This document shows positions 1 through 30,698 of a stretch of DNA of 31,206 bases, piece by piece. The notes below the pieces were generated by a model. That model saw only the letters and a list, made by a program, of their open reading frames with translations. It did no database searches and was not told the DNA's origin. The translations under genes and the position numbers were made by a program. How positions within the stretch are numbered: position 1 is the first letter of the stretch; each line of letters opens with the position of its first letter. The DNA lies in the IMG/VR virus record IMGVR_UViG_3300030102_001874, positions 1-31,206 of that record; one strand, given 5' to 3'. Origin of the DNA: a virus.

Positions 1-1496
1 AATCCGCTCGCGGCCGCGCGCTGAGCCTCTTGCTGACGAGCAAATTCGCCAAGAGCCGTCTGCTGGGCTCTGCCGAAGCCCTGAGAGCGAATCCCTGCAA
101 GGGTCTCTGCCAAGCCCCTGCCTAGCGCCTCACGGCGCTCTGCGGCTGTCAGGCGGGCTCTGGAACCAAAAGCAGACTCTCCGCCTGTCTGTATATCTCT
201 AGCTCGCTGAGCAATATCGGCCTGCTCTCCAGCCTCCAGAACATCTTCGATGGTTTGCTGAACCACTGATTGCTCAAACGGGTCATAAAACGCCTGAGTC
301 ATCGCAGGATCAAAAGCACCCGTAGCCTGACGCAAACGCGCCTCTGACTCCCCAAGTCGACCGCCAAGCCCAGCGGTGGCGCCTGCCGTCGTAAGCTCTG
401 AACCTGTCAATCCGCGATCAAGCCCGCCAATTGCACTCCGAAGTTGATTTGTGGCTACATCAAGGCCCGGCGCTAAACCAGCTAAAGCCGCCTGACGTTG
501 TGCCAACGAGCCGATCAAGTCTCGGCCGAATCGGTCGACGCCCCCAGACTCCACAGCCAAGGCGCGCTCAAGATCGGCACCAAGGTCGCCAACTGCGGCG
601 CCTTCAATACCAAGCGCGCGATCTAGCTCTGATCCAAATTGATCTCGTGCGCCAGACAGCGTGCCAGTGGCCTCGCGCACCCCTCTGCCTAGAGCCTGCT
701 CCGCCTGCTCAGCAAGCCCCTCTATAGCACCAAGATCTTCTCCAAATCTACCTGCCGCTCTGCGGCCGATATCCTGAAAGGCTGTCAGGTCACGACCAAA
801 TCGATCCGTCGCTTGCGTGGCGAGTAAATCTGCACGATCAACTCCACTCAGCAGAGACTCAAGGCCCAAGGCCCTGTTTGCCGCCGCCTCATCAGCGGCG
901 TCTTGAATTGCCGCTAAAGCATCCTCTTGCGTGCCAATTTGCGCGCCCAAGCCTTGGCGTAATGAGCCAAATGCGTCTTGGTATCCGCCCCTAAGCGCGT
1001 CTACCTGTTGCCCCAAAGCACTGCTGAGCTGAGAACCAGCGGAGCCGAAAGCGCTTTGGGCGGCTTTTAAAAAAGGCTGAATAGAGCCAATGTTTTGTTG
1101 TGCCAAATCCATCGCCGCCAATTGGCCTGCGCTGAGACCAGCTACAGGGGCTTGATAAACGATGGGCGTCCCGTCTGGGTTGAAAAAGACATTTTCAGAG
1201 GCTTGCATCGCGCCTTGGATAAAGCCCGGCTGATCTCCTAAACCAAACAACAACTGCTGAATGATCGGATCCATTGAGACATTTTGCTGGGCTACGCTTC
1301 CTACGAAAGCGCCGGGATCGAGAGTGCCTATGCCGCTTGAAGATGATGGCACAGAGACAACCGGAGTGTCCCCACCGCTTGCGTCCATGGCCGCTTGACT
1401 GTTTGCTTGCAAAATCGCTTCGAGTTCTTCTCTGGTTGGGGAGTCCACTTCGCCTGCCAGAATTTGCGCTGTTAAATCGCCCGGAAATTGACTCAT
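1..1496 (-). CDS. Putative internal virion / DNA-ejection protein, C-terminus beyond window
   Basis: An open frame begins with ATG at 1496 and runs 498 codons without a stop to the window edge, so the C-terminus is missing. The product is rich in Ala, Gly, Gln and Glu and is predicted mostly helical. Residues 231-330 carry a degenerate repeat built on RFGxDL, seen as DRFGRDL (231-237), GRFGEDL (249-255), DQFGSEL (285-291), GDLGADL (303-309) and DRFGRDL (321-327). Residues 403-445 (FYDPFEQSVV, later SAFGSR) resemble a motif I recall from ejection proteins of marine podoviruses. It lies one base after the stop of the 653-aa protein, last in the tail/ejection group. Role is inferred from composition and position. 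An internal core protein or a fibre-like structural protein are alternatives. Confidence 0.7.
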   Translation of the reverse strand, partial: MSQFPGDLTAQILAGEVDSPTREELEAILQANSQAAMDASGGDTPVVSVPSSSSGIGTLDPGAFVGSVAQQNVSMDPIIQQLLFGLGDQPGFIQGAMQASENVFFNPDGTPIVYQAPVAGLSAGQLAAMDLAQQNIGSIQPFLKAAQSAFGSAGSQLSSALGQQVDALRGGYQDAFGSLRQGLGAQIGTQEDALAAIQDAADEAAANRALGLESLLSGVDRADLLATQATDRFGRDLTAFQDIGRRAAGRFGEDLGAIEGLAEQAEQALGRGVREATGTLSGARDQFGSELDRALGIEGAAVGDLGADLERALAVESGGVDRFGRDLIGSLAQRQAALAGLAPGLDVATNQLRSAIGGLDRGLTGSELTTAGATAGLGGRLGESEARLRQATGAFDPAMTQAFYDPFEQSVVQQTIEDVLEAGEQADIAQRARDIQTGGESAFGSRARLTAAERREALGRGLAETLAGIRSQGFGRAQQTALGEFARQQEAQRAAASG

Positions 1497-1497
1497 G

Positions 1498-3459
1498 TCA
1501 AGCCCCCTTCGCCTGCGGCGGTCTGGCGAACTCGGAGAACAAATCCATCATTTTGTACATCATGTCGATGCCTTTTTCTTTGTCCTCACCCGCCATTGGC
1601 GTCAGGGTGACTATGCCGTCTTTATTTTTCATGTCGAAAGCGCCAGCTCCGCGCACTGCGCGGCCAGTCATCACAAACTCGCCATCTGACAGCATTGCAG
1701 GAATATCGTCACTGATCTCCGTGCCTTCACCGTTGATGTCACCAGTCATTCGGATGAAAAGCTCGCCATCCATGTCGCCACCTTCAGACCTATAAACCGC
1801 GCCGCCCTGATTAAACATGGGCACTGGTTGTGGTTGCGGCAACATCCCCGTGGGAGGCGTGTAATTTGGAAGCGGCATGGCTTCGTTAATGTCATTCGGG
1901 TTTGGCGCCAATAATATCTGACGCGGCGTAAATTGTTGGCCTGCGGGGATGGGTTGACCGCCGCTTAGCTTTGGGAAGTTATTAGGTAATAAGCCAAACT
2001 CAACAGGATTCGGTGCAGGCTGTCCCATCCTTCTCGCAATCTCTGCCTCAATGTTGTATCGGCCAGCCGCATTCATCTGTGTCAGAGGAGTAAGGGGAAC
2101 GCCTTTACGGTCCTTAGCTTCGTCGTAAGCCAGCTTGCCAAACAATCCAGCCAAGCCAGCGGTCCCAAGCAAGCCGCCGATTCCCATGCCGCCTTGACCG
2201 CCAAGGCCAAGCATAGATGCTAGTCCGCCACTGCCCTGCGGGCCTCCGCCTAAACCAAGGATGCCGCCAAGATTTTGCAAAACATTTTTGTTATCATCAC
2301 CGGCAAAAATAAACTCACCGATAGAGCCAAGAACACCTTTTCCGATATAAGGATTTTGAGCCAAAATTTGTTCTGGAGTTAGACCAGCTTCGCCGCCCTT
2401 TCTAATAATCTCTTGGATCTCTGGATTGTTTTGAGCCGCCTCAAATAATACTTCAGCCGCACTTTTGCCGCCGCCTCCAATACCAAAGGTTTGACCGAGG
2501 TTGCCTAGCAAACCTCTGCCATCCGCGCCCGGCATTGCATATTCATAGATACTGGAGCCTGTATTTTGCAAATTCCCTAAGAGGCCCACGTTGTCAGCGC
2601 CCGGCATAACATATTCATAAATGCTCCCCAAAATGTTGGAGCCGCTACCTGTTGGGCTAGTCAAACTTGAGATCCCTCCTGAGCCGGGGAAGCTAAAACT
2701 TCCGCCACCGAAGCCGGGTATTTTGAAGCCGCCGCCTCCGCCGGGCATGGGTGCGCCCAAAGCCGCTATTCCTGCCAGAGGATTGCCGCTTTTAAATGCG
2801 TCATAAGTATTGTACGCCTTCGAGACCATGGCCGCGTAAGGTTGCCATGGGCCCGGTATAAACTGAGCCACGTTGGCGACAGGTTTAATTACTTTTTTGG
2901 CTACTTTTTTGACCGATTTCCACGTTTTTTTGAACCAGCCAAATTCTTCCAATCCAGTAATCGGGTTGAGAGATGCGATCCCAGACCCCACGACATACTG
3001 CTCTGGGTCCAAATCAAGCTCTTCGAATCTTTCTCCGACTATGCGCTCAAAATCGGCATCTGCCATCATTTGTGGTGGCAAGACGACTTCGCCGGGCGCT
3101 AAGTGTGCCAATGTGGTGTCAGGTCCACGTCCAGCTTGAGAGAGTTGGACAGCCATGTCGGCCATTGGTGCTTGTGTCCCAACCTCTGCCGCTTGCGCAA
3201 GACCTGTTGCAACTTCGGCATCCAGCGGGTCTTCTGCCGTAGCGGCTGTATTCATTAGCTGGGCTATGGTTTCTCGTAGCCCCGCATTCGGGTCCACCGG
3301 CATTTCTGCGGACATTACAATGTCAGACTGAACTTGAGGATCCTGCAAATCAAGTGGGTTGGTGTCTACCTCTCCACCCTCCGCCATCATCATCGGTGCT
3401 TGTGGTTCCAACGGCATCCCAGCCATGGCAGAAATTCTTTGCTGAAGAAATTGGTTCAT
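1498..3459 (-). CDS. Gly-rich virion protein, putative ejection protein (653 aa)
   Basis: The start codon overlaps the stop of the upstream 105-aa gene as ATGA. Residues 118-128 hold LAPGEVVLPPQ and residues 591-600 hold SDGEFVMTGR, two motifs I associate with large structural proteins of marine phages. A Trp/Lys-rich stretch (175-193) is followed by a Gly-rich region (236-440) ending in a hydrophobic segment (424-444) that could enter a membrane. Three internal repeats occur at 279-300, 303-324 and 379-400, the first two both reading SIYEYxMPGAD then GLLGNL. The short motif AEGGEV (26-31) recurs as NQGGAV (550-555). The position after the tail hub and the membrane-like segment suggest a protein ejected with DNA; this is inference. 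Confidence 0.75.
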   Translation of the reverse strand: MNQFLQQRISAMAGMPLEPQAPMMMAEGGEVDTNPLDLQDPQVQSDIVMSAEMPVDPNAGLRETIAQLMNTAATAEDPLDAEVATGLAQAAEVGTQAPMADMAVQLSQAGRGPDTTLAHLAPGEVVLPPQMMADADFERIVGERFEELDLDPEQYVVGSGIASLNPITGLEEFGWFKKTWKSVKKVAKKVIKPVANVAQFIPGPWQPYAAMVSKAYNTYDAFKSGNPLAGIAALGAPMPGGGGGFKIPGFGGGSFSFPGSGGISSLTSPTGSGSNILGSIYEYVMPGADNVGLLGNLQNTGSSIYEYAMPGADGRGLLGNLGQTFGIGGGGKSAAEVLFEAAQNNPEIQEIIRKGGEAGLTPEQILAQNPYIGKGVLGSIGEFIFAGDDNKNVLQNLGGILGLGGGPQGSGGLASMLGLGGQGGMGIGGLLGTAGLAGLFGKLAYDEAKDRKGVPLTPLTQMNAAGRYNIEAEIARRMGQPAPNPVEFGLLPNNFPKLSGGQPIPAGQQFTPRQILLAPNPNDINEAMPLPNYTPPTGMLPQPQPVPMFNQGGAVYRSEGGDMDGELFIRMTGDINGEGTEISDDIPAMLSDGEFVMTGRAVRGAGAFDMKNKDGIVTLTPMAGEDKEKGIDMMYKMMDLFSEFARPPQAKGA

Positions 3460-3773
3460 GGCGTACTCACCGTTACGGTCCCTATACTGGCCGTCATTCC
3501 GAGCCCTGTCGCGTAAGACTGATGCTCGTACAAATTACGCAACACCGTGCCGTCAAAGGCTTGGTGTATCTCAAGCGTAGTATTGTAGATAATGGCTCCC
3601 GTGGCAAATTGCAGTTGGGAGATCTCTGTCGCGTTAAAGTGCGGCGAAATGCTAAAATCCACGCCGCCAAGGTTCAGCTCTAAAATCCTGATTAAGCGAT
3701 TAAACGTGTCTGCATCGACTTTATCATTAACCCGTGCGCTCAACGGTAGCCGAGTCGGTAGTAAGGCGCTCAT
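3456..3773 (-). CDS. Conserved small phage protein, tail/ejection region (105 aa)
   Basis: A 105-residue protein whose ATG overlaps by one base the stop of the 631-aa tail hub gene (TGATG) and whose TGA overlaps the next start (ATGA), so it sits in a coupled trio. It starts with MSALLPTRLPLSARVNDKVD, followed by a helical stretch (DTFNRLIRILELNL) and then a beta-rich half full of Thr, Ile and Gln. No signal peptide or membrane segment is visible. I do not recognise a named family. The fixed position between the tail hub and the putative ejection proteins suggests a minor virion component or an assembly factor, but nothing in the residues proves it. Confidence 0.7.
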   Translation of the reverse strand: MSALLPTRLPLSARVNDKVDADTFNRLIRILELNLGGVDFSISPHFNATEISQLQFATGAIIYNTTLEIHQAFDGTVLRNLYEHQSYATGLGMTASIGTVTVSTP

Positions 3774-5668
3774 TAACGCCTACCGCTTTGTTGCACATCG
3801 ACACGGGTAGAACCTAATCTCCATTTGTATCCAAGAGCGTCAGCGCCTGTCAGATCATCATCGCTCTCAAATCTCAAGACGATCTGCCTTGCCCTGCTCC
3901 TCAAATTTTTGAATTGAGTGGACCTTTCAATCTGTGATGTGCTTTCTGTAACAAGGGTATCGCCGGGGAAATCTCTCCTTTTCAGCACGAAATTTACCGC
4001 TGGATTATTGGACACTGACTGCGCCGTAATAAAATTAAAGTCTGGGATGATTTTTTTGACGAAGCTAAAGTTCTCTCCAGATGCCACATCAATATCTGCA
4101 CTTTCGACAAATACATTGGACATCGCGGAAGTCAAATTGTCATAACCAGATTCATGCTGGAAAACAAACTGCTGGGATGAGTCCGTTGCTGTCGCCAAGG
4201 GGGCGTCTTCGATCCCCGCGTCGAGCCACGCATATCGGACCAAACTGCCAATAGACCAGTGATTTTCTTCGTAGTTGTAGATGACGTAACGGCTTACCTC
4301 TTTCGTGTCGTCCTCTATGCTTGGATAGAAGAACCACATTTCTCCATATTCGGAGTTGAGACCCATGTGACATTTGAAGGCTTGGGTAAGGTCTAAATCG
4401 CTGAAAACGTACTCTTGCACCGAGCATGGCAGTTTTTGCACTGAGCCGTTGTAAACATAAAATCCTGTTTTTGATGCAAAAAATACACCGCCGGGCGCAG
4501 TGACGGCGGCTTTTGGGCTTACCAAGCCCGCCCCTTCATTGACCAAGTTCATGGAAAAGGTCAAGGGAGGGCCAATGAAAGCCATCGAATACAAGCTGGT
4601 ATCAGTCCAAATAAGGATTTCTTGACGGCTTTTTACAGCCCCTACGATAAAAGATCCGCTCGAAATCCGTAGCGATCCTGCGGAGTTAGTCGACAACGGC
4701 TCAAAATCCAACTCGTTCTCTGAGTCGGAAAAAGCCACCAGCATCGGATCTATCACCCCAGTTCTTGAGGAGCCGCTTATCGGATCGGCACCCAAAACAA
4801 TAAGGTGCCTGTCGATTTCAGAGGTAATAACTTGCAGTCCGGTCGTCGGCACTAAATTTGCGCCAGTGACAGTCGATAGATTAGCCGCTCTTGTGCCTAG
4901 CCCTGTGCTGTCGACCCAACGGAAAATGCCGCCACCCCTTGGATTAATAATTAAATTTTCGCCGAAGTTGTCGTGCGTCCAAATTCTGAGCTGGTTAACG
5001 TCAGATGTTGGTGAAGTAGAGCCCCACCCGCCATCACCCCATGTCCCGACTGACCAGCCCGTCGAGGCAAGATAAACGTCAAGGCCAACATTTATTTGAT
5101 ATGCGCCAACGACAGAGGATCCGCCGTTTCCGGTGTCAGAGGAGTTAGCTGTGACTGCTGAGCCAGCGGTGTCTTTGGCAGTGATTTCGTAGGTGTTAGA
5201 GCCGGTGACAAGGCTTATTTGATACTCTTGATTTAGAACTTCCGCAGTAATGTTGCCGCCTAAAGTAGCGGCGCCGGTAAAGGTCACGAAATCATTGTTG
5301 ACTGCACCGTGTCCGGTGTCGGTTACAGTAATAGTTGAGGAGCCGTTTGAAGCGGCAAAGGTCACATCTCCCGCGCCCGTTGTAGAGCGGATCGGCGTTA
5401 CATCGTTGTAGGCGTCGCCTTCTTCAATGTAATACTTGAATGTCGTGCCGAGTCCCAGATACCGAGTGCCGCCCAGCTCAATCCAGCTATGCAAAGCGCG
5501 GCAAATGCCAAGAAAGGCATCACTGCCCAACTTAACCCAGCCACCAATTTTTTCGACTCTGCCTTTGCGGAATCTAATAAGGTTGCCATCAACCCAGCCT
5601 CCCTTCGCCGAGTAATCTGTAGCCTCTTTGTCAATCCCCGGCTTGAAATCTAGCGTTTGGAGTGGCAT
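3773..5668 (-). CDS. P22 gp10-like tail hub / DNA stabilization protein (631 aa)
   Basis: Likely the tail hub that closes the portal channel after packaging and anchors the tail, as P22 gp10 does. The N-terminus (MPLQTLDFKPGIDKEATDYS, then GGWVDGNLIRFRKGRVEKIGGW) and the C-terminus (KWRLGSTRVDVQQSGRR) match the pattern I recall for gp10-type proteins: an N-terminal segment that binds the connector and a closing beta strand ending in GRR. The middle is beta-rich with repeated Trp/Gly motifs, consistent with a propeller. Residues around 95-185 form a Thr/Ser/Gly-rich domain that may be an inserted Ig-like fold. It follows neck block A by six bases and has no obvious Shine-Dalgarno sequence, so it may rely on coupling. 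Family call from motifs and context; no search was run. Confidence 0.8.
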   Translation of the reverse strand: MPLQTLDFKPGIDKEATDYSAKGGWVDGNLIRFRKGRVEKIGGWVKLGSDAFLGICRALHSWIELGGTRYLGLGTTFKYYIEEGDAYNDVTPIRSTTGAGDVTFAASNGSSTITVTDTGHGAVNNDFVTFTGAATLGGNITAEVLNQEYQISLVTGSNTYEITAKDTAGSAVTANSSDTGNGGSSVVGAYQINVGLDVYLASTGWSVGTWGDGGWGSTSPTSDVNQLRIWTHDNFGENLIINPRGGGIFRWVDSTGLGTRAANLSTVTGANLVPTTGLQVITSEIDRHLIVLGADPISGSSRTGVIDPMLVAFSDSENELDFEPLSTNSAGSLRISSGSFIVGAVKSRQEILIWTDTSLYSMAFIGPPLTFSMNLVNEGAGLVSPKAAVTAPGGVFFASKTGFYVYNGSVQKLPCSVQEYVFSDLDLTQAFKCHMGLNSEYGEMWFFYPSIEDDTKEVSRYVIYNYEENHWSIGSLVRYAWLDAGIEDAPLATATDSSQQFVFQHESGYDNLTSAMSNVFVESADIDVASGENFSFVKKIIPDFNFITAQSVSNNPAVNFVLKRRDFPGDTLVTESTSQIERSTQFKNLRSRARQIVLRFESDDDLTGADALGYKWRLGSTRVDVQQSGRR

Positions 5669-5674
5669 TTGGCA

Positions 5675-6103
5675 TTACGCCAGCCTGATGATCGCGCCCG
5701 TCGCTGTAGGAGACGGAAACACAACAGTGAAATTTCCTGCCGTCGATGTTTTATCGCCACCAAAATCCAAGGCACATACGGCTTTGTTCGACGCAGAAGA
5801 GTTGTAAATCAAAGCCCCTCTCGCCGTCACGGTTGCGGTCCCAAATGTAAGGTCTGCAAAATCACAAATAGCTGTTGTTCCAGAGGTGGTGGGCGTTACG
5901 CTTGTAAGATTGCTACCGCCTGAAGTGTAATTTGTTCCAGAGGACTGGCCGGTGGTAGTAAACGCTGTGGTGCTTGCGCCCAAAGTTGCCGAGCTTGTGT
6001 ACAAAGCCAACTTGAAAGTGTTTCCAGAACTAGCCGTGAAGTTATGAGTGCCCACAAGACACTCTTGCTTGAAGCTGGTGCAAATCGCAGAGGTAATGGC
6101 CAT
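5675..6103 (-). CDS. Small beta-rich virion protein, copy A (142 aa)
   Basis: A Thr/Ser/Gly-rich protein with alternating hydrophobic residues, predicted almost all beta. It shares long runs with the protein at 29319-29762: CTSFKQE, HNFT, TFKLA, VTPTTSGTTA, DFADLTFG, TARGALIYN and a C-terminus of the type AIIR(L/I)A. I recall this as a common small protein of marine phages annotated only as hypothetical or structural. One base separates its ATG from the TGA of the 96-aa gene. Lying between the adaptor genes and the tail hub, it is probably part of the neck or tail. Unlike copy B it contains extra Cys residues (for example at positions 15, 80 and near 110). Confidence 0.8.
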   Translation of the reverse strand: MAITSAICTSFKQECLVGTHNFTASSGNTFKLALYTSSATLGASTTAFTTTGQSSGTNYTSGGSNLTSVTPTTSGTTAICDFADLTFGTATVTARGALIYNSSASNKAVCALDFGGDKTSTAGNFTVVFPSPTATGAIIRLA

Positions 6104-6104
6104 G

Positions 6105-6395
6105 TCAAAGCTCCTTTAAAATATCTGCAAACTGTGTGTGGCCCTGACCTCGCAACGTCTGAGCAATCGTAGTCCGATCTGAAAAAATTGCGCTTTTCAT
6201 TCCTCGAAGAATAACACTATACACCTCATTCTTAAAAGCCTCTGCCTGCTGTCGAATGTGAGGTGGCGCATCCTCAGAAATCTGCAAAATTTTGTTGGTT
6301 GTAATCTCTGCCCAGAACTCTGGATCATGCCCGCCATGGTCTGAGGTGGCGACCATCACTTGTCCGAGAGTCGCCCCTATATTTTCACCCATCAT
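6105..6395 (-). CDS. Small helical conserved phage protein, copy A (96 aa)
   Basis: A 96-residue, mainly helical protein of unknown function. Its C-terminal half (QAEAFKNEVYSVI, SDRTTIAQTL, GQGHTQFADILKEL) aligns with the protein at 29764-30054, which has SDRTTVGNAL and a similar GHKDLAELIRRL ending. The conserved core is DxAPPxIRxQAxAxK followed by SDRTT. The N-terminal ~35 residues differ between the copies. Its ATG overlaps the stop of the 240-aa gene (ATGA), and it ends one base before the next start. A role as chaperone or minor neck component is possible but not shown by the sequence. Confidence 0.75.
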   Translation of the reverse strand: MMGENIGATLGQVMVATSDHGGHDPEFWAEITTNKILQISEDAPPHIRQQAEAFKNEVYSVILRGMKSAIFSDRTTIAQTLRGQGHTQFADILKEL

Positions 6396-7114
6396 CCCTT
6401 ATATGGCTCCGGTGCAGAAGGCATCTCGATGCGCTGGAAATCATACTTTTCTTGCGCTTCAGCAAATCGGGATTGATGACAGACGATCCACTGACCAGAC
6501 TGGTCCGTCAATGCCATCAGGGGATCTTCAAGACGGTGATATCCATAAAGACGCTCATGGGGGTCAACATTGCTGTCAAGTAGAGCAGATCGAGGACTTG
6601 CTCCAATACTAACGCCCTCACTGATGCAACGAGATATCCAGAACTCCACGCACCCTCGGCCCGCCTCTGCGAAGTGCAAGTTGTGCTTATAACTAAAATC
6701 CATGCCAAATAGGTCCATGTGGCCCACTCTGTTATAAAGACCAAATGCTATGGCATAAGCCACAGTGTTGTTCAAATATGCACATTTTTGGTCTTCAATG
6801 ACGTCGACAATAGGATATTCCACAATCGCGGGCACCCTATCATCAAGCTCGCACGAGTAAATCGGCTTATCAAACGTAGGCAACAGTTTACGCATGACGT
6901 CGGTTTGATTACCGGCATCATCAGTATCTAAATACCGAGATGCGGGGTCCATCATAAAAACGCGGTCACAATCAAAAACAGCTAAAGATGAGTTAATACA
7001 CCATACCTCGTCCCATTCTTTGCTATTTTCGACCGATATGACGTAATCGATTTGAGAGGCACCTAGCCCCAGAAGGGCAATTTTTTTGCCCTCCAGCTCC
7101 CTGATTTTTGACAT
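6392..7114 (-). CDS. Rossmann-like protein of unknown function, only in neck block A (240 aa)
   Basis: The N-terminus reads a short charged lead, then KKIALLGLGASQIDYV, a beta strand followed by a GxGxS turn as in nucleotide-binding Rossmann folds. Further features are DEVWCINSS, DRVFMMDP (near residue 50), YLNNTVAYAIAFGL, LFGMDFSYKHN and AGRGCVEFWISRC. This layout recalls the DUF115/MptE-like and sialyltransferase-like groups, in which a Rossmann core binds a nucleotide or nucleotide-sugar, but I cannot assign a reaction. It starts two bases after the adaptor stop and overlaps the next gene by four, so it is cotranscribed with structural genes. The equivalent position in copy B has no such gene: there the adaptor runs directly into the 96-aa gene. 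It may be a cargo gene or an enzyme acting on host glycans or nucleotides. Confidence 0.7.
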   Translation of the reverse strand: MSKIRELEGKKIALLGLGASQIDYVISVENSKEWDEVWCINSSLAVFDCDRVFMMDPASRYLDTDDAGNQTDVMRKLLPTFDKPIYSCELDDRVPAIVEYPIVDVIEDQKCAYLNNTVAYAIAFGLYNRVGHMDLFGMDFSYKHNLHFAEAGRGCVEFWISRCISEGVSIGASPRSALLDSNVDPHERLYGYHRLEDPLMALTDQSGQWIVCHQSRFAEAQEKYDFQRIEMPSAPEPYKG

Positions 7115-7116
7115 TT

Positions 7117-7764
7117 TTAAGTTACACCTATCCTCAATAAATCATAACGATATTCATCACGAGTCCCACGTCCCTCGCTGACGTTTTTCATTCTCGCGAG
7201 CCCTTCCTTGAACCGAGCCTCAAAGGTCTGCACAACCTCTGGCGGCTCCTTCAAAAACACTGCCGCCTCCACCAAAGCCCCATACAACAAGGGATCCGGG
7301 TGGTCGGTAGACAGCAAAGTGGTGCCCGAGTCGCCTTCTTGGGTCAAAGTGCCGGGCTTATGTAAGTAGTGGAGTTCGACCGTGTAGTTTGAGTTAGGCA
7401 CAGGTGAAAGCTCGAAGGCCGTGTCGTCAAACAAAGAATAATATTTTGGTCTTCCCTCGGTAGTGGCGTTCGGAGAGTATTGCTTAATGAAGCTGGGGTG
7501 CTTGAATTCCAAATAGTGATATACGTTGCTATCAATCACGGCCAGCGAAAATGGAGCATAAAAGTCTGAGGGCGTCGCCAAAAATCTCTTACTGGCTGTC
7601 ATAGTTCCGGTCACGTTTTGACGCTGTTCCGGTAACTCCACGTTTTTGAAAATACGATCCTCGCTCTCGCGAATGAATCTATCTAAATTAGCGTTAAAGG
7701 TGGTCTCGTTGACCTGCAAATAATCTTGGATTGTGGTTTTCAGGCTGGCAAGCGTAAAGCTCAT
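7117..7764 (-). CDS. Head-tail adaptor, copy A (215 aa)
   Basis: A phage head-to-tail adaptor of the kind found in phage SU10, forming a ring below the portal. Diagnostic N-terminal pattern: MSFTLASLKTTIQDYL, ETTFNANLDRFIRESEDRI, then FKNVELPEQRQNVTGT. The middle is beta-rich (APFSL, YYSLFD, ELHYLHKP) and the C-terminus is helical (LLYGALVEAAVFLK onward). It has the same length as its homologue at 30051-30698 and shares FIRxxExRIxKNVxL, APFSL, ELHY and LLYGxLxEA. The start codon overlaps the upstream stop as ATGA. The family name is from recall of the N-terminal motif; the structural role is well supported by context. Confidence 0.8.
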   Translation of the reverse strand: MSFTLASLKTTIQDYLQVNETTFNANLDRFIRESEDRIFKNVELPEQRQNVTGTMTASKRFLATPSDFYAPFSLAVIDSNVYHYLEFKHPSFIKQYSPNATTEGRPKYYSLFDDTAFELSPVPNSNYTVELHYLHKPGTLTQEGDSGTTLLSTDHPDPLLYGALVEAAVFLKEPPEVVQTFEARFKEGLARMKNVSEGRGTRDEYRYDLLRIGVT

Positions 7765-8084
7765 GTGATTGTCACCTCCACAGTTCCAACTGCGCTAGTA
7801 ATTTGGAAAGTGCTTAATTCCGCACCGAGTATACCATTACCTACATTTGTATACACCATGAAGAAGTTTCCGTCTCGTCCATCGCTAGAGGGGTCGACCC
7901 GTGCGTCTCTCACAGCCTCTGGATCATAGGTGGAGGGCTTTCTTTCCAGTTGTGGATGCTTTGGTGACCATTGATCTGGACCCACCAATAGGCCGTTCCA
8001 CGTCTTTTTCATGTCTCTCAGCTTGTACCGAAATCCAGTGATATCACAGATTCCATACGCATTTTTGCCGCCACTGAAGGACAT
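7761..8084 (-). CDS. Small conserved neck-region protein, copy A (107 aa)
   Basis: The N-terminal half carries the family signature: GKNAYGICDITGFRYKL, then W-GLLVGPDQW and PQL. The homologue at 30695-31054 has GKHAYGISDRSGFRYKL and MLVGPDEF. After residue ~50 the two differ, but both end in a short beta-like tail (VGTVEVTIT here). In related phages this small gene sits between the gp4-like connector and the adaptor, so it is likely a neck component or an assembly helper. ATG overlaps the upstream TAA by one base (TAATG) and the stop overlaps the next start by four. Function unknown. Confidence 0.8.
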   Translation of the reverse strand: MSFSGGKNAYGICDITGFRYKLRDMKKTWNGLLVGPDQWSPKHPQLERKPSTYDPEAVRDARVDPSSDGRDGNFFMVYTNVGNGILGAELSTFQITSAVGTVEVTIT

Positions 8085-8779
8085 TAAGCAATCCTGTAAA
8101 TGGTCAAGTCGGGAGCAACCCTGAATGACGCACGAGACTGATCCTGTGACAGGGCCCGCTCGAACTCCTCCTCATAAAGCTGTTTGAGCAAGGGCACCCT
8201 GTCTGGCACGCGCTTCATCGCTATGTAATATGCAAGACCGGCCGCAAGACAGGGGAAAAAACGAAACGGTATTTCTATCGTATCAGTGCCTACATCAGCA
8301 TCATCCATGCGGCTCAACACGTTCAGGTGCAAGGTGTAAGTAGAGTTTTTGTCAGGCGCAGGATAGACCGTAATCGTAGGACTTATCTGCTTGTCGATAA
8401 AATATTGATTTGGCTTGCCGGTGCTGGTCTTAGTTGCAATGTGAGCATACTCTGCCCGAGAAAGTTTTGTCAGCGGCAAGTCTGTGACCGTACCGGAGAC
8501 TGTCTCGCGCACAAATACGTCCAAGACATCGATGACCGACGTGGGATTTGTCGAATCAATCGTGTATACAATAGTATCTTTTACTGCACTTATTGTTTTC
8601 TGATTGATAGTCCACTGGTTTAATCCGCGATTGGCCCACTCTGCAAGCATGAGGTTGAGAGATCGCTGTGCCGTCTTGAGGTCATAACCAGTGCGAAGCT
8701 CAAGCCCACATCGCTCAAAGGCTTCCTCTACATAATCCGCTACATCTAACTCAAAATCTTTACTGCCGCTCGTCGCCAT
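8084..8779 (-). CDS. gp4-like head-tail connector, copy A (231 aa)
   Basis: Resembles the connector ring proteins that attach to the portal, such as P22 gp4 (tail accessory factor). The N-terminal half is helical (FELDVADYVEEAFERCGLEL, then AQRSLNLMLAEWANRGLNQW), the middle is beta-rich, and the C-terminal helices contain LAYYIAMKR and LYEEEFERAL. The last 50 residues match the partial gene at 31054-31206 at 29 of 50 positions by hand. I chose ATG at 8779; a GTG at 8788 would add three residues and has no better ribosome-binding site. The start lies inside the end of the 232-aa gene, so the two are coupled. Confidence 0.8.
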   Translation of the reverse strand: MATSGSKDFELDVADYVEEAFERCGLELRTGYDLKTAQRSLNLMLAEWANRGLNQWTINQKTISAVKDTIVYTIDSTNPTSVIDVLDVFVRETVSGTVTDLPLTKLSRAEYAHIATKTSTGKPNQYFIDKQISPTITVYPAPDKNSTYTLHLNVLSRMDDADVGTDTIEIPFRFFPCLAAGLAYYIAMKRVPDRVPLLKQLYEEEFERALSQDQSRASFRVAPDLTIYRIA

Positions 8780-9458
8780 CTTCAGCACCCGCGTAGAGAT
8801 TATTAAACACTTGATTCACATCTAGGGTGTAGTCTAAATCAGATTTTGAGTAATGGATATGCTGAGAGGGTCTGAAGTCAGGAGCGCCCTCTCCTGTCTC
8901 GAACCAAGCTGGATGTGTTACTCGCACTCGGTTGTTTGGCAACGCCACTATGTTACCTGTCCATGGTCCTGCGTCGAGCAACTCAAGGACGTGGCTTTGC
9001 TTATGCTGAGCGGGATCGTCGGCTATCTCGTTCTCCGCATAATCAACAGTGAAATAATACTTGGCGGGATACATCTCGCCGTCAATCATCGCAAGCCAAG
9101 GACACGGTGTAGCTCTGTCGAGCACGTAGACAGCGTGGTGATGAGAGCTACAATCCCATGGCTGAGCCGCCCAGACGGGCATTGGCTCAGGCCACTCATC
9201 CAGAGGAGTATCACCAACTAACGCAGTAATAGGCATACGAGCCCACATGGCACCGCCATGAACATTTGGCTCGTCGTCATCGTCGTAAGTCTCAGCTCCA
9301 GTAAAAATTAATTGGAAACTGAGACATCGAGTTGGCATTGTTGTGACGGCAATAGCCATAGCATGAATAAATTCGCCGTGGTATTGCTGATGGTTGTGCG
9401 TGTACTCCCTGCGTACCCAGCACTTAAAGTGCGGGATATTACTTTGCAAATAAGCCAT
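8760..9458 (-). CDS. Conserved phage protein of unknown function (232 aa)
   Basis: A 232-residue protein with a distinctive N-terminus (MAYLQSNIPHFKCWVRREYT) that I recall from many marine phages, where it is placed near the neck genes and unnamed. It is rich in His, Trp, Tyr and Asp, with clusters such as SSHHHAVYVLD, an acidic YDDDDEP patch and HIHYSK near the end, so metal binding is conceivable. No signal peptide or membrane segment. Its ATG directly follows the TAG of the 118-aa repeat protein, with GGGAGA upstream as a ribosome-binding site. It overlaps the connector gene. A virion or assembly role is inferred from position only. Neck block B is cut before this position, so whether it too is duplicated cannot be told. 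Confidence 0.75.
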   Translation of the reverse strand: MAYLQSNIPHFKCWVRREYTHNHQQYHGEFIHAMAIAVTTMPTRCLSFQLIFTGAETYDDDDEPNVHGGAMWARMPITALVGDTPLDEWPEPMPVWAAQPWDCSSHHHAVYVLDRATPCPWLAMIDGEMYPAKYYFTVDYAENEIADDPAQHKQSHVLELLDAGPWTGNIVALPNNRVRVTHPAWFETGEGAPDFRPSQHIHYSKSDLDYTLDVNQVFNNLYAGAEDGDERQ

Positions 9459-9815
9459 CTATCTCCCGTAAAGACCACTCTTCTTGTTTGACGGTGGCCG
9501 CATTCGCATTTTGCCGCCAGTAGCACCGCCCTTCGTTTTCATGGCGCCGCCTTTTGCCATGCCTTTTGTCTTCATGGCACCGCCTTTAGGCATTCCCTTC
9601 GTCTTCATGGCACCGCCTTTAGAATAACCCTTAGATTTCATTACACCCCCCTCTGCCATGCCTTTGACATCTTTCTTGCTCAAATATTCTCCGGCCTGCT
9701 TAATCATCTCATCCACGGAAGGGACTGATTTTTTGGCACTTTTGCTCTGCCGCAAAATCTTTGCTTTATCCTCCAATTTCAATTCTTTATCACTTTTTGC
9801 GCCTTTGCTTTTCAT
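9459..9815 (-). CDS. Basic repeat protein with 11-residue KGGAMKTKGM repeats (118 aa)
   Basis: Very Lys-rich throughout. Residues 1-50 look helical (ELKLEDKAKILRQS, VDEMIKQAGEYL). Residues 53-103 are a tandem repeat with an 11-residue period, with GG motifs at AEGGVM, SKGGAM, PKGGAM, AKGGAM and ATGGKM, separated by KSKGY or KTKGM. I chose ATG at 9815 because AGGAG lies seven bases upstream; a GTG at 9830 in a GTGA overlap would add five residues but lacks a binding site. No catalytic features. The basic charge suggests nucleic-acid or capsid-interior contact; that is inference. It is the last of four consecutive small basic genes. Confidence 0.7.
   Translation of the reverse strand: MKSKGAKSDKELKLEDKAKILRQSKSAKKSVPSVDEMIKQAGEYLSKKDVKGMAEGGVMKSKGYSKGGAMKTKGMPKGGAMKTKGMAKGGAMKTKGGATGGKMRMRPPSNKKSGLYGR
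9505..9669 (-). repeat. 33-bp in-frame tandem repeat
   Basis: About five units of 33 bases lie end to end at 9505, 9538, 9571, 9604 and 9637. Units at 9538, 9571 and 9604 begin on the plus strand with ttcatggc(g/a)ccgcctttt or a close variant; the outer two are more degenerate. Each unit encodes one 11-residue repeat of the basic protein. There are no unique spacers, so it is a coding minisatellite, open to copy-number change by slippage or recombination. Confidence 0.8.
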
Positions 9816-9826
9816 CGCCTTGCTCC

Positions 9827-10009
9827 TCACGATTTTGGGATACGGGTTTTTTTGCGCTTGCCTTCCATCATCGCGCCACAGCCACGTCCTTGAATCTCGA
9901 CATAACCGCCTTTGTTCAAATTGCGGGCAATCGCCTCGCCACGCTTTCGCTCATAGCCAGACAGCTTTCCGTCTTTATCCAAGTCAGCCTTCTTTTCGTC
10001 AATCTTCAT
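9827..10009 (-). CDS. Small basic protein with EF-hand-like loop (60 aa)
   Basis: Residues 9-20 read DLDKDGKLSGYE, which fits the 12-residue EF-hand calcium loop: D9, D11, D13, G14, K15 backbone, S17 and E20 at the last ligand position. The flanking RKRGEAIARNL could be the exiting helix. A second short motif NKGGYVEIQGRG (31-42) contains the xGGxV element shared with other proteins here, and the tail is basic. The ATG overlaps the upstream stop (ATGA). I have seen similar tiny proteins with a DxDGKLSxYE loop in marine phage structural operons, always unnamed. Calcium binding is predicted, not shown. Confidence 0.7.
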   Translation of the reverse strand: MKIDEKKADLDKDGKLSGYERKRGEAIARNLNKGGYVEIQGRGCGAMMEGKRKKTRIPKS

Positions 10010-10260
10010 TTGCGATGCCTCGCTGTCTTTTTAGCCACCTTCTTAGGTTGCTTCGAAAACTGTTTGCCTTTTTTGGTGTCCGCGCGCTTCTTCCTTGTAG
10101 TGGCCGCATATTCCTTGTCGGACATTGCCTTGATGGCCTTCTCTGGCAAATATCTCTCGCCCGTGGCCTTAGACCCTTGCGTGCTTGGCTTGCCAGACTT
10201 GGTTCGCCACTTTTGCTTTGTCCACTTCTTCAAGGACTTTTGTGACTTCTTCAGAGCCAT
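10006..10260 (-). CDS. Small highly basic conserved phage protein (84 aa)
   Basis: An extremely Lys/Arg-rich protein with a recognisable order of motifs: LKKSQKSLKKWTKQKW, RTKSGKPSTQG, GERYLPEKAI, YAATTRKKR, KKGKQFSKQPKK. I recall the same order in many marine phages and some large viruses, possibly Pfam DUF5872, but am not certain of the number. No membrane or signal segment. The ATG overlaps the upstream TAA by one base (TAATG), and the TGA overlaps the next ATG. High charge suggests binding to DNA or RNA or neutralising packaged DNA; this is inference. Confidence 0.75.
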   Translation of the reverse strand: MALKKSQKSLKKWTKQKWRTKSGKPSTQGSKATGERYLPEKAIKAMSDKEYAATTRKKRADTKKGKQFSKQPKKVAKKTARHRK

Positions 10261-10472
10261 TAGTCCTTGTATCCTCCCCCAGCTTTTTTGTATTCAGACG
10301 CCAGCATTTGGGCCTTCCGAGCCGACCATTGGCCGGGCCTTCCGCCCTTGCCGCCAGCTTTTATGCGGTTGAAAATCCTTTTTCGGAGGGTAGGCTTAGT
10401 GTAGTTGCCCGCCTCATTAACCCGAGATTTTGCCTTTTTCTTTGGCTTGGCCTTAGATTTAGCTCTCGGCAT
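10260..10472 (-). CDS. Small highly basic conserved phage protein (70 aa)
   Basis: Begins with a Lys/Ala/Pro tail (MPRAKSKAKPKKKAKS) resembling histone H1-type tails, then a conserved block: VNEAGNYTKP, LRKRIFNRIKAGGKGG, PGQWSARKAQMLA, YKKAGGGYKD. A strong AAGGAG lies seven bases before the ATG at 10472, restarting translation after a short gap from the 395-aa gene. I recall the block as frequent in marine phage genomes without a function. DNA binding is plausible from charge. It is the first of four adjacent small basic genes. Confidence 0.75.
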   Translation of the reverse strand: MPRAKSKAKPKKKAKSRVNEAGNYTKPTLRKRIFNRIKAGGKGGRPGQWSARKAQMLASEYKKAGGGYKD

Positions 10473-10483
10473 GAAATTACTCC

Positions 10484-11671
10484 TTAGCCCATGGCGCCCA
10501 TCATCGGCGCGTTCATTCTCGTGTTGTCCATCACAATTTTACTAGGCGCACGAACATCAACCTCACGATCTTGCATAGGCATCGTAGACTGCCTATATTC
10601 TGCGTCCGTCACAATCCCATCATTATTGAGATCGTGACCTTGTGCGATAGCCGCGCGTTGATTACCCATTGCTTCTTGGGCTGTCATTCCTCGGCCCATG
10701 AGTGCTGATAATCGCGCCATCCTATCTCTGAGATTGCCAATATCGATGCTTCCACCAAAAGGCAGAGAGATCGAGGCCCTGTCTGGGTTGTTTGCTAAAA
10801 ACGCATCAAGTCTTGCCTGTATCGCGGCTGGGTCCATCTGCGGCTGTTGCGGCGCAGGCTGTGCCATCTCTTGTTGCCGCTGGCGAATCATGTCCCTAAT
10901 CCTGTCAATTTGGCTCTGATCAAGGTTAAGGCCAAGCTTAGAGCCGCCAAAAAAGGGATTTGGCGTGGTCATTCCAGCGGATAAACCCGTATCAAACAAG
11001 CTCGACATCGGCGAAGAACCGCCCGTAACCCCTTGTGTAGTGTTTAACAAATTTTTGAATAAGCCAGTGGGTGCAGATCCGCTATCTCCCGACCCCTGTA
11101 TGCCGTCAAGCGCTCTCAAGTTTGCGCCCAGTTCAGTGATTCCGAGACGGGTTGGGAGCCTGCGGGGCCCTTGAATAGAGGAGATGAGGTTTGCAATTGA
11201 AACGGGCTCACGATCAGGTAATCCCATATTTTGATCTTGAGGGATCGTCCCCATGAGCTGAGCAATCACGCCTTGGTTCATATTGGAGCCTCCTTGAGGA
11301 ATTACTTGTCCGCCTTGTCTCATCATCGGCACATCTTGCAATTCACTGCCTCGCCGAAAATATTGGCTCAAATCACTCAAGGGCAGGTCAGACCGCACTC
11401 CAAAACCGCCTCTGGCGGTTCCAGCTCCGCCGCTAAGAGGCATCATTCCGCTCATGCCGCCGAAGGGCGTGCGGTTTGTCATTTGGCCGTCGCCCGTGCC
11501 CGCCGCTCCACCAGCGCCTGAAATCATTGAAGCAATTTCTGGTCCGTATCGAACTAACGCTCCAGCGGCAGGATTGATAAGCGAAATTATGCCTGCCGCC
11601 GCACCGCGAGGAGTGGTATAGCTCGAAACGATAGGTTTGATGCGGGTAAGAATCTCATCTTTTATGCTCAT
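10484..11671 (-). CDS. Gly/Met-rich phage protein with C-terminal EF-hand-like loop (395 aa)
   Basis: Low-complexity Gly/Met/Gln-rich protein of unknown function. Residues 1-60 include a hydrophobic, Gly/Ala-rich stretch (GAAAGIISLINPAAGALV). MMRQGGQVIPQGG (116-128) carries the xGGxV element. Residues 254-340 are helical with RIRDMIRQRQQEMA and a Pro/Gln linker. Residues 347-358 read DLNNDGIVTDAE, a good match to an EF-hand loop, followed by YRQ. The start has AGGAA upstream. The lack of folded-domain signatures and the place among head genes suggest a minor or internal virion protein. Other readings, such as a scaffold or chaperone, remain open. Confidence 0.7.
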   Translation of the reverse strand: MSIKDEILTRIKPIVSSYTTPRGAAAGIISLINPAAGALVRYGPEIASMISGAGGAAGTGDGQMTNRTPFGGMSGMMPLSGGAGTARGGFGVRSDLPLSDLSQYFRRGSELQDVPMMRQGGQVIPQGGSNMNQGVIAQLMGTIPQDQNMGLPDREPVSIANLISSIQGPRRLPTRLGITELGANLRALDGIQGSGDSGSAPTGLFKNLLNTTQGVTGGSSPMSSLFDTGLSAGMTTPNPFFGGSKLGLNLDQSQIDRIRDMIRQRQQEMAQPAPQQPQMDPAAIQARLDAFLANNPDRASISLPFGGSIDIGNLRDRMARLSALMGRGMTAQEAMGNQRAAIAQGHDLNNDGIVTDAEYRQSTMPMQDREVDVRAPSKIVMDNTRMNAPMMGAMG

Positions 11672-11680
11672 TTCATTTTC

Positions 11681-11965
11681 CTACCAAGCCTTACACGACC
11701 AGTATCTGGCCGAAAACTTGTCTTTTGCGGTATCGCATTTATGCCGTGCGCGGAAAGACTTACGTCTTGCGGGCTGGCTTTTCTTGATGGTCATTTTGCT
11801 ATCGCCATAACGCACGAGCTTGACCTCGTTTCCTTTTTTGGCGAGAACTGCGCTTTTTTTGGCTTTACCGGGCGTGCGCTTTGGCTTGTTGTAGCCAGCA
11901 AAAGTCTCCCCCCTGTAGCTTAATCGCCCAGAGGGGAGTCGCTTTACGTCTTTGGTCGTAGCCAT
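11681..11965 (-). CDS. Small basic conserved phage protein (94 aa)
   Basis: A strongly basic protein with two parts: an N-terminal LPSGRLSYRGETFAGYNKPKR and a conserved C-terminus YGDSKMTIKKSQPARRKSF, then FRARHKCDTAKDK and RYWSCKAW. The two Cys (77 and 91) and His75 could form a metal site or disulfide, but four ligands of a zinc site are not evident. I recall this C-terminal pattern (ARHKC to RYWSCKAW) in other marine phages. It starts three bases after the 134-aa gene stop with no clear ribosome-binding site, so coupling is likely. Function unknown. Confidence 0.75.
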   Translation of the reverse strand: MATTKDVKRLPSGRLSYRGETFAGYNKPKRTPGKAKKSAVLAKKGNEVKLVRYGDSKMTIKKSQPARRKSFRARHKCDTAKDKFSARYWSCKAW

Positions 11966-11968
11966 AAA

Positions 11969-12373
11969 TCAACCGTAACTCTTGATTAGCTCCAGAATAA
12001 TCATATAGCTGTCACCAGAAGAATGACCGACAGTTGTAAAGTCTAAGTCTCCAGTCTTTCCAGAGCCTGCATTATTAGGGATGCCAGAGAAATTAGAATA
12101 GTCGTGATGACCATTCGAGTTTTCTGACAACCCGATTGCCAAAACATTGGATGAGGCATCGAACTCAATCTTTACAGACATACCAGTACACTGCCACCAG
12201 ATCTTATTGATCGTGACAGCAGAGCACGCCTCTCCACGAGTGTTTGACGTTAAAGCAGAAACGTCGACTTTTTTGACTGCCGACTCACCTGTGCCATCGC
12301 TGGCATTGGTGAATTTCAAGACGGCTTTGCGTTCACCATCTTGAATAGTTTGCGAAGTGACTGCATCAGCCAT
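11969..12373 (-). CDS. Conserved beta-rich virion-type protein (134 aa)
   Basis: A Ser/Thr/Gly-rich protein with alternating hydrophobic residues. The N-terminal KAVLKFTNASDGTGES and VKKVDVSAL pattern is one I recall from small proteins encoded next to marine phage decoration or tail genes. It ends in MIILELIKSYG. A strong GGAGG sits six bases before the ATG, in line with high expression. There is no signal peptide. Located just after the jelly-roll-like protein and the capsid gene, it is probably a minor capsid or decoration component; direct evidence is lacking. Confidence 0.75.
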   Translation of the reverse strand: MADAVTSQTIQDGERKAVLKFTNASDGTGESAVKKVDVSALTSNTRGEACSAVTINKIWWQCTGMSVKIEFDASSNVLAIGLSENSNGHHDYSNFSGIPNNAGSGKTGDLDFTTVGHSSGDSYMIILELIKSYG

Positions 12374-12387
12374 GTGGAACCTCCAAT

Positions 12388-13098: not shown

Positions 13099-13141
13099 AA
13101 CAGTTCTCCTTGTGAACCAGCCGTTGCCCTATGCAATGACC

Positions 13142-13171
13142 ATTAGACTACGACAGTGTACTCCGAAACAA
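13142..13171 (-). promoter_or_regulatory. Weak sigma-70-like promoter candidate after capsid terminator
   Basis: On the minus strand a -10-like TCTAAT (13142-13147) lies 18 bases after TTGTTT (13166-13171). The -10 matches five of six consensus bases, the -35 only three. The site would restart transcription for the decoration-protein gene right after the terminator that follows the capsid gene. Weak by sequence; its position is the main argument. Confidence 0.25.
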
Positions 13172-13198: not shown

Positions 13199-13219
13199 GA
13201 GGAGTGAACAAGGGGTGAC

Positions 13220-14137: not shown

Positions 14138-14144
14138 CCGTCAG

Positions 14145-14737: not shown

Positions 14738-14749
14738 GCTTTAGCTCTC

Positions 14750-25856: not shown

Positions 25857-26354
25857 TTACGGCTTTTCGGGCCATGTAATGGTGCTGGGAAAATCTGTCT
25901 GTTGTGGCACATCACGCAAAGCCTGCCTGTACGTTGCCATATCGTCCGACATGGTGACATCAGACAAACCATAATGGTCTGTTTCCGCTAACAAAAGATC
26001 GCGCTTAGAGCGTTCTTGGGCGGCTAAGTACGCAGTATTTGCCGCATCGTAAGCATCTTTCTGGTCCTGTACAGTAACTGTGTTTCCTTCGTCATCCTCG
26101 TACTCACTGAACATATCCTGCTCTGTCCATGCGTACACCCAGTTACCATTAGAATCTTGTACAGCACCGTCGCGCACTACGACTTTATAGTCACCAGAGG
26201 GCGCTGGCTTAGGTGATTCCAGCACTGGATCGACATTCAAGGCGTCAAAAGTGCTTTCACCCCAGACTTTTGGGAAGCTCATATTTTTGTTTTCAGCTTT
26301 CAACTCGGCGTCTGTCTTAATTTCGCCGCTTGTTCGATTTCTGTATTCAGGCAT
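25857..26354 (-). CDS. Tail fibre assembly chaperone-like protein (165 aa)
   Basis: The C-terminal third fits the phage tail assembly chaperone family (PF16778 as I recall): RDLLLAETDHYGLSDVTMS, then YRQALRDVPQQTDFPSTITW, where R-LL-tD-LsD and YRqaLRDvp-FP-WP are the signature positions. The N-terminus (PEYRNRTSGEIKTDAELKAE) is also typical of copies in marine phages. It directly follows the two fibre-type genes, with AGGAG before ATG, matching the usual fibre-then-chaperone order. Predicted role: folding or trimerisation of the 666-aa or 316-aa fibre; it may remain on the particle. Confidence 0.8.
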   Translation of the reverse strand: MPEYRNRTSGEIKTDAELKAENKNMSFPKVWGESTFDALNVDPVLESPKPAPSGDYKVVVRDGAVQDSNGNWVYAWTEQDMFSEYEDDEGNTVTVQDQKDAYDAANTAYLAAQERSKRDLLLAETDHYGLSDVTMSDDMATYRQALRDVPQQTDFPSTITWPEKP

Positions 26355-29763: not shown

Positions 29764-30054
29764 TCATAATCTCCTGATAAGTTCAGCCAAATCTTTATGC
29801 CCCGCATCAAGCAAAGCGTTACCGACAGTCGTCCTGTCGCTTTGAACAGCCTCGTTCATATAAAAAACAAGAACCGCTCGTAAATGATCTTTATATGCGA
29901 TTGCTTGATCCCGAATCGCAGGGGGAGCAGTGTCCGAAACACTGAGAAGCTTGTCTAAGCACCGTTCAGCAACCTCTTCAGGAGTGAAGCCACGATGTTG
30001 GGTGGTCTGAACTTCAACCATTCCGGGGGATAGTGTAACTCCTTCAAACTTCAT
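29764..30054 (-). CDS. Small helical conserved phage protein, copy B (96 aa)
   Basis: Same length as copy A at 6105-6395. Shared features are TAPPAIRDQAIAYKD (DxAPPxIRxQA in both), SDRTT and a C-terminal GHKDLAELIRRL. The first ~35 residues differ from copy A apart from a few positions. The start overlaps the adaptor stop (ATGA); here the adaptor and this gene are adjacent, with no Rossmann-like gene between. Function unknown. Confidence 0.75.
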   Translation of the reverse strand: MKFEGVTLSPGMVEVQTTQHRGFTPEEVAERCLDKLLSVSDTAPPAIRDQAIAYKDHLRAVLVFYMNEAVQSDRTTVGNALLDAGHKDLAELIRRL

Positions 30055-30698
30055 TGTTTAGGCCTTATTAGCATTCCGGTCATGTATTGATCGGTCACTT
30101 CCTTAGACTCCCCAAACTGTTTTAGTCCCGCTAACGCATTTTGCAATTGAGAGGCGTACAGACCCAATACGTCCTGTTCACCTTTCATAAAAATATAAGC
30201 TTCCAACAAACTGCCGTAAAGCAGGGCCAAAGGCGCATTCTCACTAAGCCAAGATTGAGCCGAGTCCGCCAAACTGGTCAAACTGGCGGGGCGGTAGTAA
30301 TAATGAAGTTCTGCCACTAAAGAGGCGTCCGGAGTTGGCCCCAAAATAAAATTTGAACTATCGAAAAGCGCGTAATAACGCGGTGTTCCCGTAGTGCTTT
30401 CGTTTGGATTGAACGCTTGAACAAAATTAACGTCTTTAAATTCAACAAATACTTTTGACGAAGACACCTCAAAGGACAACGAAAACGGCGCAAGAAAGTC
30501 TGTTGGGCAATCTAAATATTTATTCGACACGGTAGATGTGCCGAGCACGTTTTTACGAAATTCAGATAATTGGACGTTTTTAAGTATGCGTTCTTCTGCG
30601 TTACGAATAAAAATAGGGATATTTGTGACAAACGTAGTTTCGTCGTTTTCCGTGTAATCTTGTATCGCCTGTTTTAGCTCGCCGTATGTAAAACTCAT
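30051..30698 (-). CDS. Head-tail adaptor, copy B (215 aa)
   Basis: Homologue of 7117-7764 with identical length. The diagnostic N-terminus is present: MSFTYGELKQAIQDYT, ETTFVTNIPIFIRNAEERI, then LKNVQLSEFRKNV. Shared later stretches include APFSL, YYALFD, ELHYYYRPASL and LLYGSLLEA. The fold expected is a helical bundle with a beta-rich middle, forming the ring between portal and tail. It overlaps both neighbours by four bases. Whether both adaptors are built into particles, or only one, cannot be told from sequence. Confidence 0.8.
   Translation of the reverse strand: MSFTYGELKQAIQDYTENDETTFVTNIPIFIRNAEERILKNVQLSEFRKNVLGTSTVSNKYLDCPTDFLAPFSLSFEVSSSKVFVEFKDVNFVQAFNPNESTTGTPRYYALFDSSNFILGPTPDASLVAELHYYYRPASLTSLADSAQSWLSENAPLALLYGSLLEAYIFMKGEQDVLGLYASQLQNALAGLKQFGESKEVTDQYMTGMLIRPKQ

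Follow-up and report, generated by a model that had tools for sequence, protein, structure and literature searches.

The window analyzed here is a stretch of 31,206 bases from the 35,694-base virus record IMGVR_UViG_3300030102_001874. It contains a phage neck operon (neck A), in which an ORF of 240 amino acids at 6392..7114 on the minus strand, starting with ATG, is placed between the gene of a neck adaptor and a 96-aa gene. The original prediction had singled out this gene, its position and its coupling by overlap to the next gene; all three are confirmed in the ORF list with translations, since the protein carries both quoted motifs, KIALLGLGAS and LFGMDFSY, the adaptor stop at 7117 lies 2 bases upstream of the 240-aa gene, and 4 bases are common to the 240-aa gene and the 96-aa ORF. 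In a second neck (neck B), the adaptor and the 96-aa ORF abut directly with a 4-base overlap and nothing between them, again as claimed. In a Pfam profile search, both adaptors match PF24175 (SU10_adaptor), with E values of 5e-26 (neck A) and 2e-23 (neck B). The features are summarized in Table 1.

Table 1. Features of the two necks and of the 240-aa protein in window coordinates.
Feature	Position	Strand	Basis or remark
240-aa alpha/beta protein, predicted member of the GT42/GT29-Maf-MptE-TPK-SteA fold group	6392..7114	-	ORF, relatives, model, fold matches
GLGASQ, residues 16-21, loop after first strand	7052..7069	-	G18, S20, and Q21 invariant in 38/38
GMDFSYKHNLH, residues 137-147, after strand 6 with flexible loop; candidate active-site loop	6674..6706	-	alignment and model; putative function
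Adaptor of the lineage-A neck (SU10_adaptor), ending 2 bases before the 240-aa gene	7117..7764	-	ORF and PF24175
96-aa gene, uncharacterised family, 4-base overlap with the 240-aa gene	6105..6395	-	ORF
142-aa gene, phrog_644	5675..6103	-	PHROGs match
Neck-operon gene of 107 aa (phrog_28581), preceding the adaptor	7761..8084	-	PHROGs match
Second adaptor-like gene of neck A	8084..8788	-	PF24175, weaker match
Lineage-B adaptor, comparison neck without the 240-aa gene	30051..30698	-	ORF and PF24175
Lineage-B 96-aa gene, adjoins its adaptor	29764..30054	-	ORF
Approximate break point, probable chimeric join	25880..25900 (about 25,890)		identity to twin record G001 drops from 100% to about 62-85%

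Further genes are associated with the neck. Besides the adaptor, the neck-A operon holds a second SU10_adaptor-like gene. A 232-aa gene (8760-9458) inside the structural cassette matches phrog_3704 ("ferredoxin", auxiliary metabolic), a label that looks doubtful, and a counterpart is present in module B. Next to the neck, the ORF at 9459-9830 is rich in Lys, Gly, and Met and repeats GGAMKTKGM-like units; the long alignment with the twin record described below is interrupted around it.

The two necks had been regarded as two copies of one structure; the comparison with other records does not bear this out and suggests instead that two lineages, rather than paralogous copies, are joined in a probably chimeric record. 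The twin record G001 (55,098 bases) is 99.3% identical to the window over 1-9608 and over 9825-26391, and the identity is 100% in each 100-base slice within 25,000-25,799, 98% in the following slice, and 62-85% thereafter. G001 possesses one adaptor only, and the region to the right of the break comprises fibre genes and other ORFs. The best matches of the window slices from 29,000 to 30,599 are the B-type contigs L089 or L088 (up to 96%), and module B continues beyond the window with a second 232-aa-type gene, a second adaptor-like gene, and a partial second capsid gene. The adaptors of lineages A and B are about 43% identical. One adaptor is present in each of 15/15 A-type and 12/12 B-type records, and two are present in 1 of the 383 loci examined, which is the window itself. 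Because identity to G001 is lost near 25,890, G001 has a single neck, and one adaptor is found elsewhere, the record is probably chimeric, joining sequence of two related phages from two deep lineages. A genuine virus carrying two structural modules, in which the 240-aa gene would mark one of two paralogous necks, is very unlikely: the stretch between the necks contains no N, and the only gap noted in the record (10 N at 31207-31216) lies beyond both necks, as such a virus would have it, but G001 goes on without a second neck after the identity ends, and the adaptor counts likewise speak against it. The two necks of this public record are thus not to be taken as a duplication.

Relatives of the 240-aa gene are numerous in viral contigs, where at least 600 stretches match its patterns; among the 600 listed, 599 were confirmed as relatives. 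The carriers (lineage A) are uncultured phages, most of them marine, and form a large group. In genome contigs, relatives occur in 2 of 40 stretches, on MAG contigs titled Trichodesmium and Maricaulis (L168 and L169); both adjoin the 96- and 142-aa neck genes, one also the adaptor, and they are probably misbinned phage contigs. When loci were collected with the gene itself, the adaptor was in view at 77/80 loci and at 63/66 new loci, and the 240-aa gene directly follows it in all 140; these counts exclude six loci where no adaptor was in view (L011, L044, L061, L188, L212, and L226), and L081-L087, L168, and L169 are excluded from the presence counts. Furthermore, surveys of the best 80 loci each were seeded with adaptors, which leaves the lineages between A and B thinly sampled. 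With A-type adaptors, the 240-aa gene was found in 72/72 loci with room for it among 76 new loci (query L077; four loci were too short after the adaptor) and in 80/80 loci with room (query L072), at least seven of these A-type loci (L237, L239, L240, L245, and L312-L314) being contigs already in the gene-seeded set. With a B-type adaptor, it was found in 0/78 loci with room (two were too short); in 65 of these loci the 96-aa gene comes directly after the adaptor, and in 13 the 142-aa-type gene does. The latter 13 loci, without a recognisable 96-aa gene, are L128, L130, L132, L134, L135, L138, L139, L140, L141, L142, L143, L154, and L155.

The gene is likewise absent from the outgroups surveyed. 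It was found in 0/80 loci seeded with the HTVC027P adaptor, 79 of which have a 142-aa-type gene at most 100 bases after the adaptor, and in 0/78 new loci seeded with the 142-aa-type gene of DSL-LC04, 76 of which have 100-450 bases between adaptor and 142-aa-type gene and hence room for a 96-aa gene. Among the named phages HTVC027P, HTVC023P, DSL-LC04, 023Pt_psg01, CRP-901, ctpbd312, and GB2A, no 240-aa-type gene follows the adaptor, and a whole-genome search found such a gene in 0/7, with the positive control G001 detected; in 12 B-type records it was found in 0/12, with 4/4 A-type positive controls found in the same search. From 363 full adaptors, one tree was built with 81 representatives (90% threshold) and another with 32 representatives (80% threshold) plus six named phages (38 rows). 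The presence of the gene needs one change on both, the outgroup root being weakly supported (77/37). As the outgroups are without the gene, gain is simpler than loss, and the simplest history that the sequences suggest is that lineage A gained the gene once, at its base, between the adaptor and the 96-aa gene; the original prediction, "gained in one copy or lost from the other", is narrowed accordingly to one change with gain favored. That prediction was also to fall if the gene proved fixed at this position in all relatives as a known neck component: the gene is indeed fixed within its clade, but it is not a known neck component. It appears as a clade-defining core gene of an uncultured phage lineage related to the group of HTVC023P/HTVC027P and CRP-901, whose genomes are about 52-61 kb long.

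Enzymes within purely structural phage operons are usually taken as cargo, and a cargo gene had been suggested here. The organization of the loci indicates otherwise. The spacing to the adaptor is -1 in 177/290 loci and -4 in 65/290, a 4-base overlap with the 96-aa gene is found in 161/290, and overlap or near-abutment is kept on both sides of the 240-aa gene. The median dN/dS is 0.050 for the 240-aa gene (624 pairs), compared with 0.065 for the adaptor, 0.076 for the 142-aa gene, and 0.145 for the 96-aa gene, and across 268 loci, whose G+C ranges from 36 to 63%, the G+C content of the gene tracks that of the adaptor with a mean difference of 0.012. The many relatives and the purifying selection establish that the ORF is genuine, far beyond chance. 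The patchy presence expected of a cargo gene (moron) was not observed, as the gene occupies 152/152 adaptor-seeded loci with room and its presence needs one tree change. A sporadic cargo gene is therefore ruled out by fixation in both A-type surveys, coupling on both sides, and strong purifying selection, and the adaptor-like median dN/dS marks a core gene; the protein is probably a core particle-assembly enzyme of the lineage rather than a passing cargo gene. An ORF resembling an HNH homing endonuclease by eye (L534:1296-1907) separates the 96-aa gene from the 142-aa gene of the neck in 1/78 loci and, in contrast to the fixed 240-aa gene, has the appearance of a mobile insertion.

Searches with sequences and profiles do not place the protein in a known family. 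The window protein and 21 members match no credible Pfam, PHROGs, or NCBIfam family; PF01973 or PF06002 was matched at E ≤ 10 by 0/21 members, the window protein alone gave no match to PF01973, and phrog_9598 was matched by 3/21 members (best E 0.0058). Sequence searches of the PDB yielded no match, and with P0001 as the query the sole match was P0001 itself. Profile comparison gave a probability of 9.8% with bacterial PF01973 domains and 0.6% with one such domain, and an HMM search of bacterial PF01973 ORFs gave weak local matches only, at the TV...LFGxD stretch. PF01973 was found in 0/5 phage records, and PF06002, used as a GT42 yardstick in alphaproteobacterial genomes, in 0/385, but in the controls likewise in 0/14. 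A search of 50,697 phage records yielded a single credible sequence relative, XAN61349.1 of Microcystis phage Mvi-Yong1342-1 (24% identity over 172 residues, E 0.04; profile comparison probabilities 95 and 93; genome search E 4.1e-7), whose gene differs in its location, being not in the neck but just upstream of the adjoining small terminase gene. XAN61349.1 (L082:5905-6708) was deposited as a "type 11 methyltransferase", a name that is probably wrong because the protein is distantly related to the 240-aa family.

By contrast with the profiles, structure prediction leads to a known fold group. The second model, based on 38 sequences, has a pLDDT of 87.0 and a pTM of 0.82 (first model, 21 sequences: pLDDT 76.6). 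Foldseek gave eight matches at E ≤ 0.001 for the second model, namely five CstII chains, one human ST8SiaIII, one HPPK, and one SteA; the best is the GT42 enzyme CstII with a CMP-sugar analogue (1ro7; E 1.5e-4, TM about 0.47), and TM-scores to known enzymes are about 0.4-0.5. In VIA-align, rows 1-25 all fall within the same fold group (Z 11.9 to 6.8; next row 5.8), with Z scores of 11.9 for HPPK, 11.6 for Maf, 10.8 for SteA, 10.4 for TPK, 10.3 for CstII, and 7.3 and below for GT29. Rows within 1 Z count as ties, so the group and not any single member is the result. Individual alignments comprise 146 residues with an rmsd of 2.8 for 8sd5 (Z 11.9), 163 and 3.2 for 5mu5 (Z 11.6), 149 and 3.5 for 9hmy (Z 10.8), and 156 and 3.5 for 1ro7 (Z 10.3); GT42 chains align over 146-170 residues with 14-17% identity, versus 119-146 residues and 10-15% for HPPK/TPK. 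In BFVD, predicted folds of uncultured Caudovirales match at 20% identity or less, several of them named MptE-like, the best being the unnamed protein A0A6J5RL04 (E 7.6e-10, TM 0.58/0.54). The predicted fold is thus well supported as a nucleotide-binding alpha/beta fold of the sialyltransferase/Maf/MptE-HPPK/thiamin-pyrophosphokinase/SteA group. The Rossmann-like fold proposed from the sequence is upheld by the model and its matches, and the leads named for a profile and structure search (DUF115/MptE and the sialyltransferases) are exactly the group that Foldseek and VIA-align retrieved, whereas no profile matched. The protein represents a new family in a known fold group, and no such enzyme was found described at this place in the literature searched.

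Conserved residues were mapped on an alignment of 38 representatives down to 45% identity. In the loop after strand 6, G137, D139, and Y142 are invariant (38/38) and H147 is kept in 37/38, as is N41; D56, P57, R60, and D63 after strand 3 are invariant in 38/38. The stretch of lowest model confidence, 142-150, holds the conserved Y142, N145, H147, A149, and E150 and might be a mobile active-site loop. The positions after strand ends show no significant excess of invariant residues (P 0.11), and the share of invariant residues is similar in the adaptor (18%) and the 240-aa protein (16%); conservation as a proof of catalysis was dropped on these grounds.

Comparison with the members of the fold group reveals both likenesses and differences. 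GT42 sialyltransferases (CstII/Cst-I, PF06002) have, according to the model, the same fold, with a Gly-rich loop, a GxD motif, and then a His, like the 240-aa protein, although the latter has no PF06002 match and about 15% identity, and the lid of CstII is longer than the 8-position span from D139 to H147. H147 and N41 may lie where CstII has His188 and Asn51. The Maf flagellin glycosyltransferases (central domain PF01973, 5mu5) also have this fold and work beside a self-assembling structure; however, Maf comprises three domains (PMC11339370), whereas a single 240-aa protein without a PF01973 match is present here, and most strong PF01973 frames are about 600-1200 aa. The GxGPS loop after strand 1, by which the bacterial PF01973 members were chosen for this comparison, is replaced by GLGAS in the window protein (G18 and S20 invariant, no Pro), and a GxD after strand 6 with a downstream His is present, in an order that looks similar by eye in bacterial PF01973 sequences. 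MptE-type HPPK of Methanocaldococcus and thiamin pyrophosphokinase have the same fold, but with 10-15% identity, fewer aligned residues, and kinase motifs that were not recognised here. SteA, an actinobacterial cell division regulator working with SteB, has the fold of its C-terminal domain in common with the 240-aa protein at 6% identity. SteA is not known as an enzyme. It is reported to be a putative phosphonucleotide-binding protein with a conserved pocket without known catalysis that matches those of TPPK and CstII, and GDP or UDP stabilise the Corynebacterium protein (PMC12977500).

The favored explanation, with a probability of roughly 0.38, is that the protein may be a glycosyltransferase that uses nucleotide sugars and modifies a virion protein while the particle is assembled. 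A single acquisition would have placed the gene between those of the adaptor and the 96-aa protein, where it was then kept, and its product would be synthesized alongside the late structural proteins. A nucleotide-activated donor, perhaps a CMP-sugar, would bind in the cleft formed at the Gly-rich and GxD...H loops, and its sugar would be passed to a virion protein as the particle forms, in the way that Maf glycosylates flagellin. Precedents are given by Maf, which has a pfam01973 domain like Cst-II and O-glycosylates flagellin from CMP-activated sugars (PMC11339370), by mycobacteriophages, whose capsid and tail tube are glycosylated by their own glycosyltransferases (PMC12363180), and by HTVC023P-type phages, in which three glycosyltransferases were identified (PMC9599517). 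From these and from SteA, we infer the transferase activity, its donor, and its acceptor; the fold and the ligand site are predicted from the model and comparison. The modification of virion or host surface sugars suggested in the original prediction would be compatible with the fold. Against the favored reading, no sequence family ties the protein to a glycosyltransferase, the fold also serves pyrophosphokinases and SteA, and the TM-scores of about 0.4-0.5 are low.

The main rival, unlikely though it is in itself, is a non-catalytic use of the fold, in which the protein would bind a nucleotide, a glycan, or only its neighbors as a neck assembly factor or a minor virion part. Fixation in the neck operon with coupling to the adaptor and the 96-aa gene, a selection level equal to that of the structural neighbors, and the high rank of SteA (Z 10.8), a regulator with the same fold and putatively phosphonucleotide-binding, are in line with such a role; however, lineage B and the outgroups form the adaptor-96-aa-142-aa neck without the 240-aa gene, which is thus not needed for that architecture, and the number of polar positions that are invariant, along with a loop His that is nearly so, fits it poorly. 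GT42 enzymes make cell-surface glycans, and the same Foldseek and VIA-align evidence would suit a glycosyltransferase acting on host surface glycans, e.g., for a superinfection block, rather than on the virion. This is quite improbable for a gene that is coupled inside late structural genes and fixed rather than sporadic, in loci whose range of G+C suggests varied hosts with varied surfaces. A pyrophosphokinase-like enzyme of the pterin or thiamin type, which might provide the particle with a cofactor, is highly improbable. With the first model, Foldseek matched MptE-type HPPK alone at E ≤ 0.001, and HPPK tops VIA-align for the second, and several viral models of the same fold are named MptE-like, but GT42 leads Foldseek with the better model, and the Z differences under 1 are ties. 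Furthermore, HPPK/TPK kinases have a metal-binding Asp motif, which is not obvious in the DPASR stretch of the 240-aa protein.

The gene is as constrained as the adjoining adaptor, and since it marks one of two related lineages whose necks otherwise have the same gene order, it provides a natural comparison of necks with and without it. It is a doubtful, broader proposal that the whole widespread uncultured lineage may glycosylate its own neck or tail via a one-domain Maf- or sialyltransferase-like enzyme using host CMP-sugars (such as Kdo or nonulosonic acids). If true, it would mean that an enzyme is fixed in the virion morphogenesis of aquatic phages and that the fold group has a new family. 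If the protein modifies the particle, abundant aquatic phages would join the mycobacteriophages, in which virion glycosylation has been shown, and the modification could be sought in virome proteomes.
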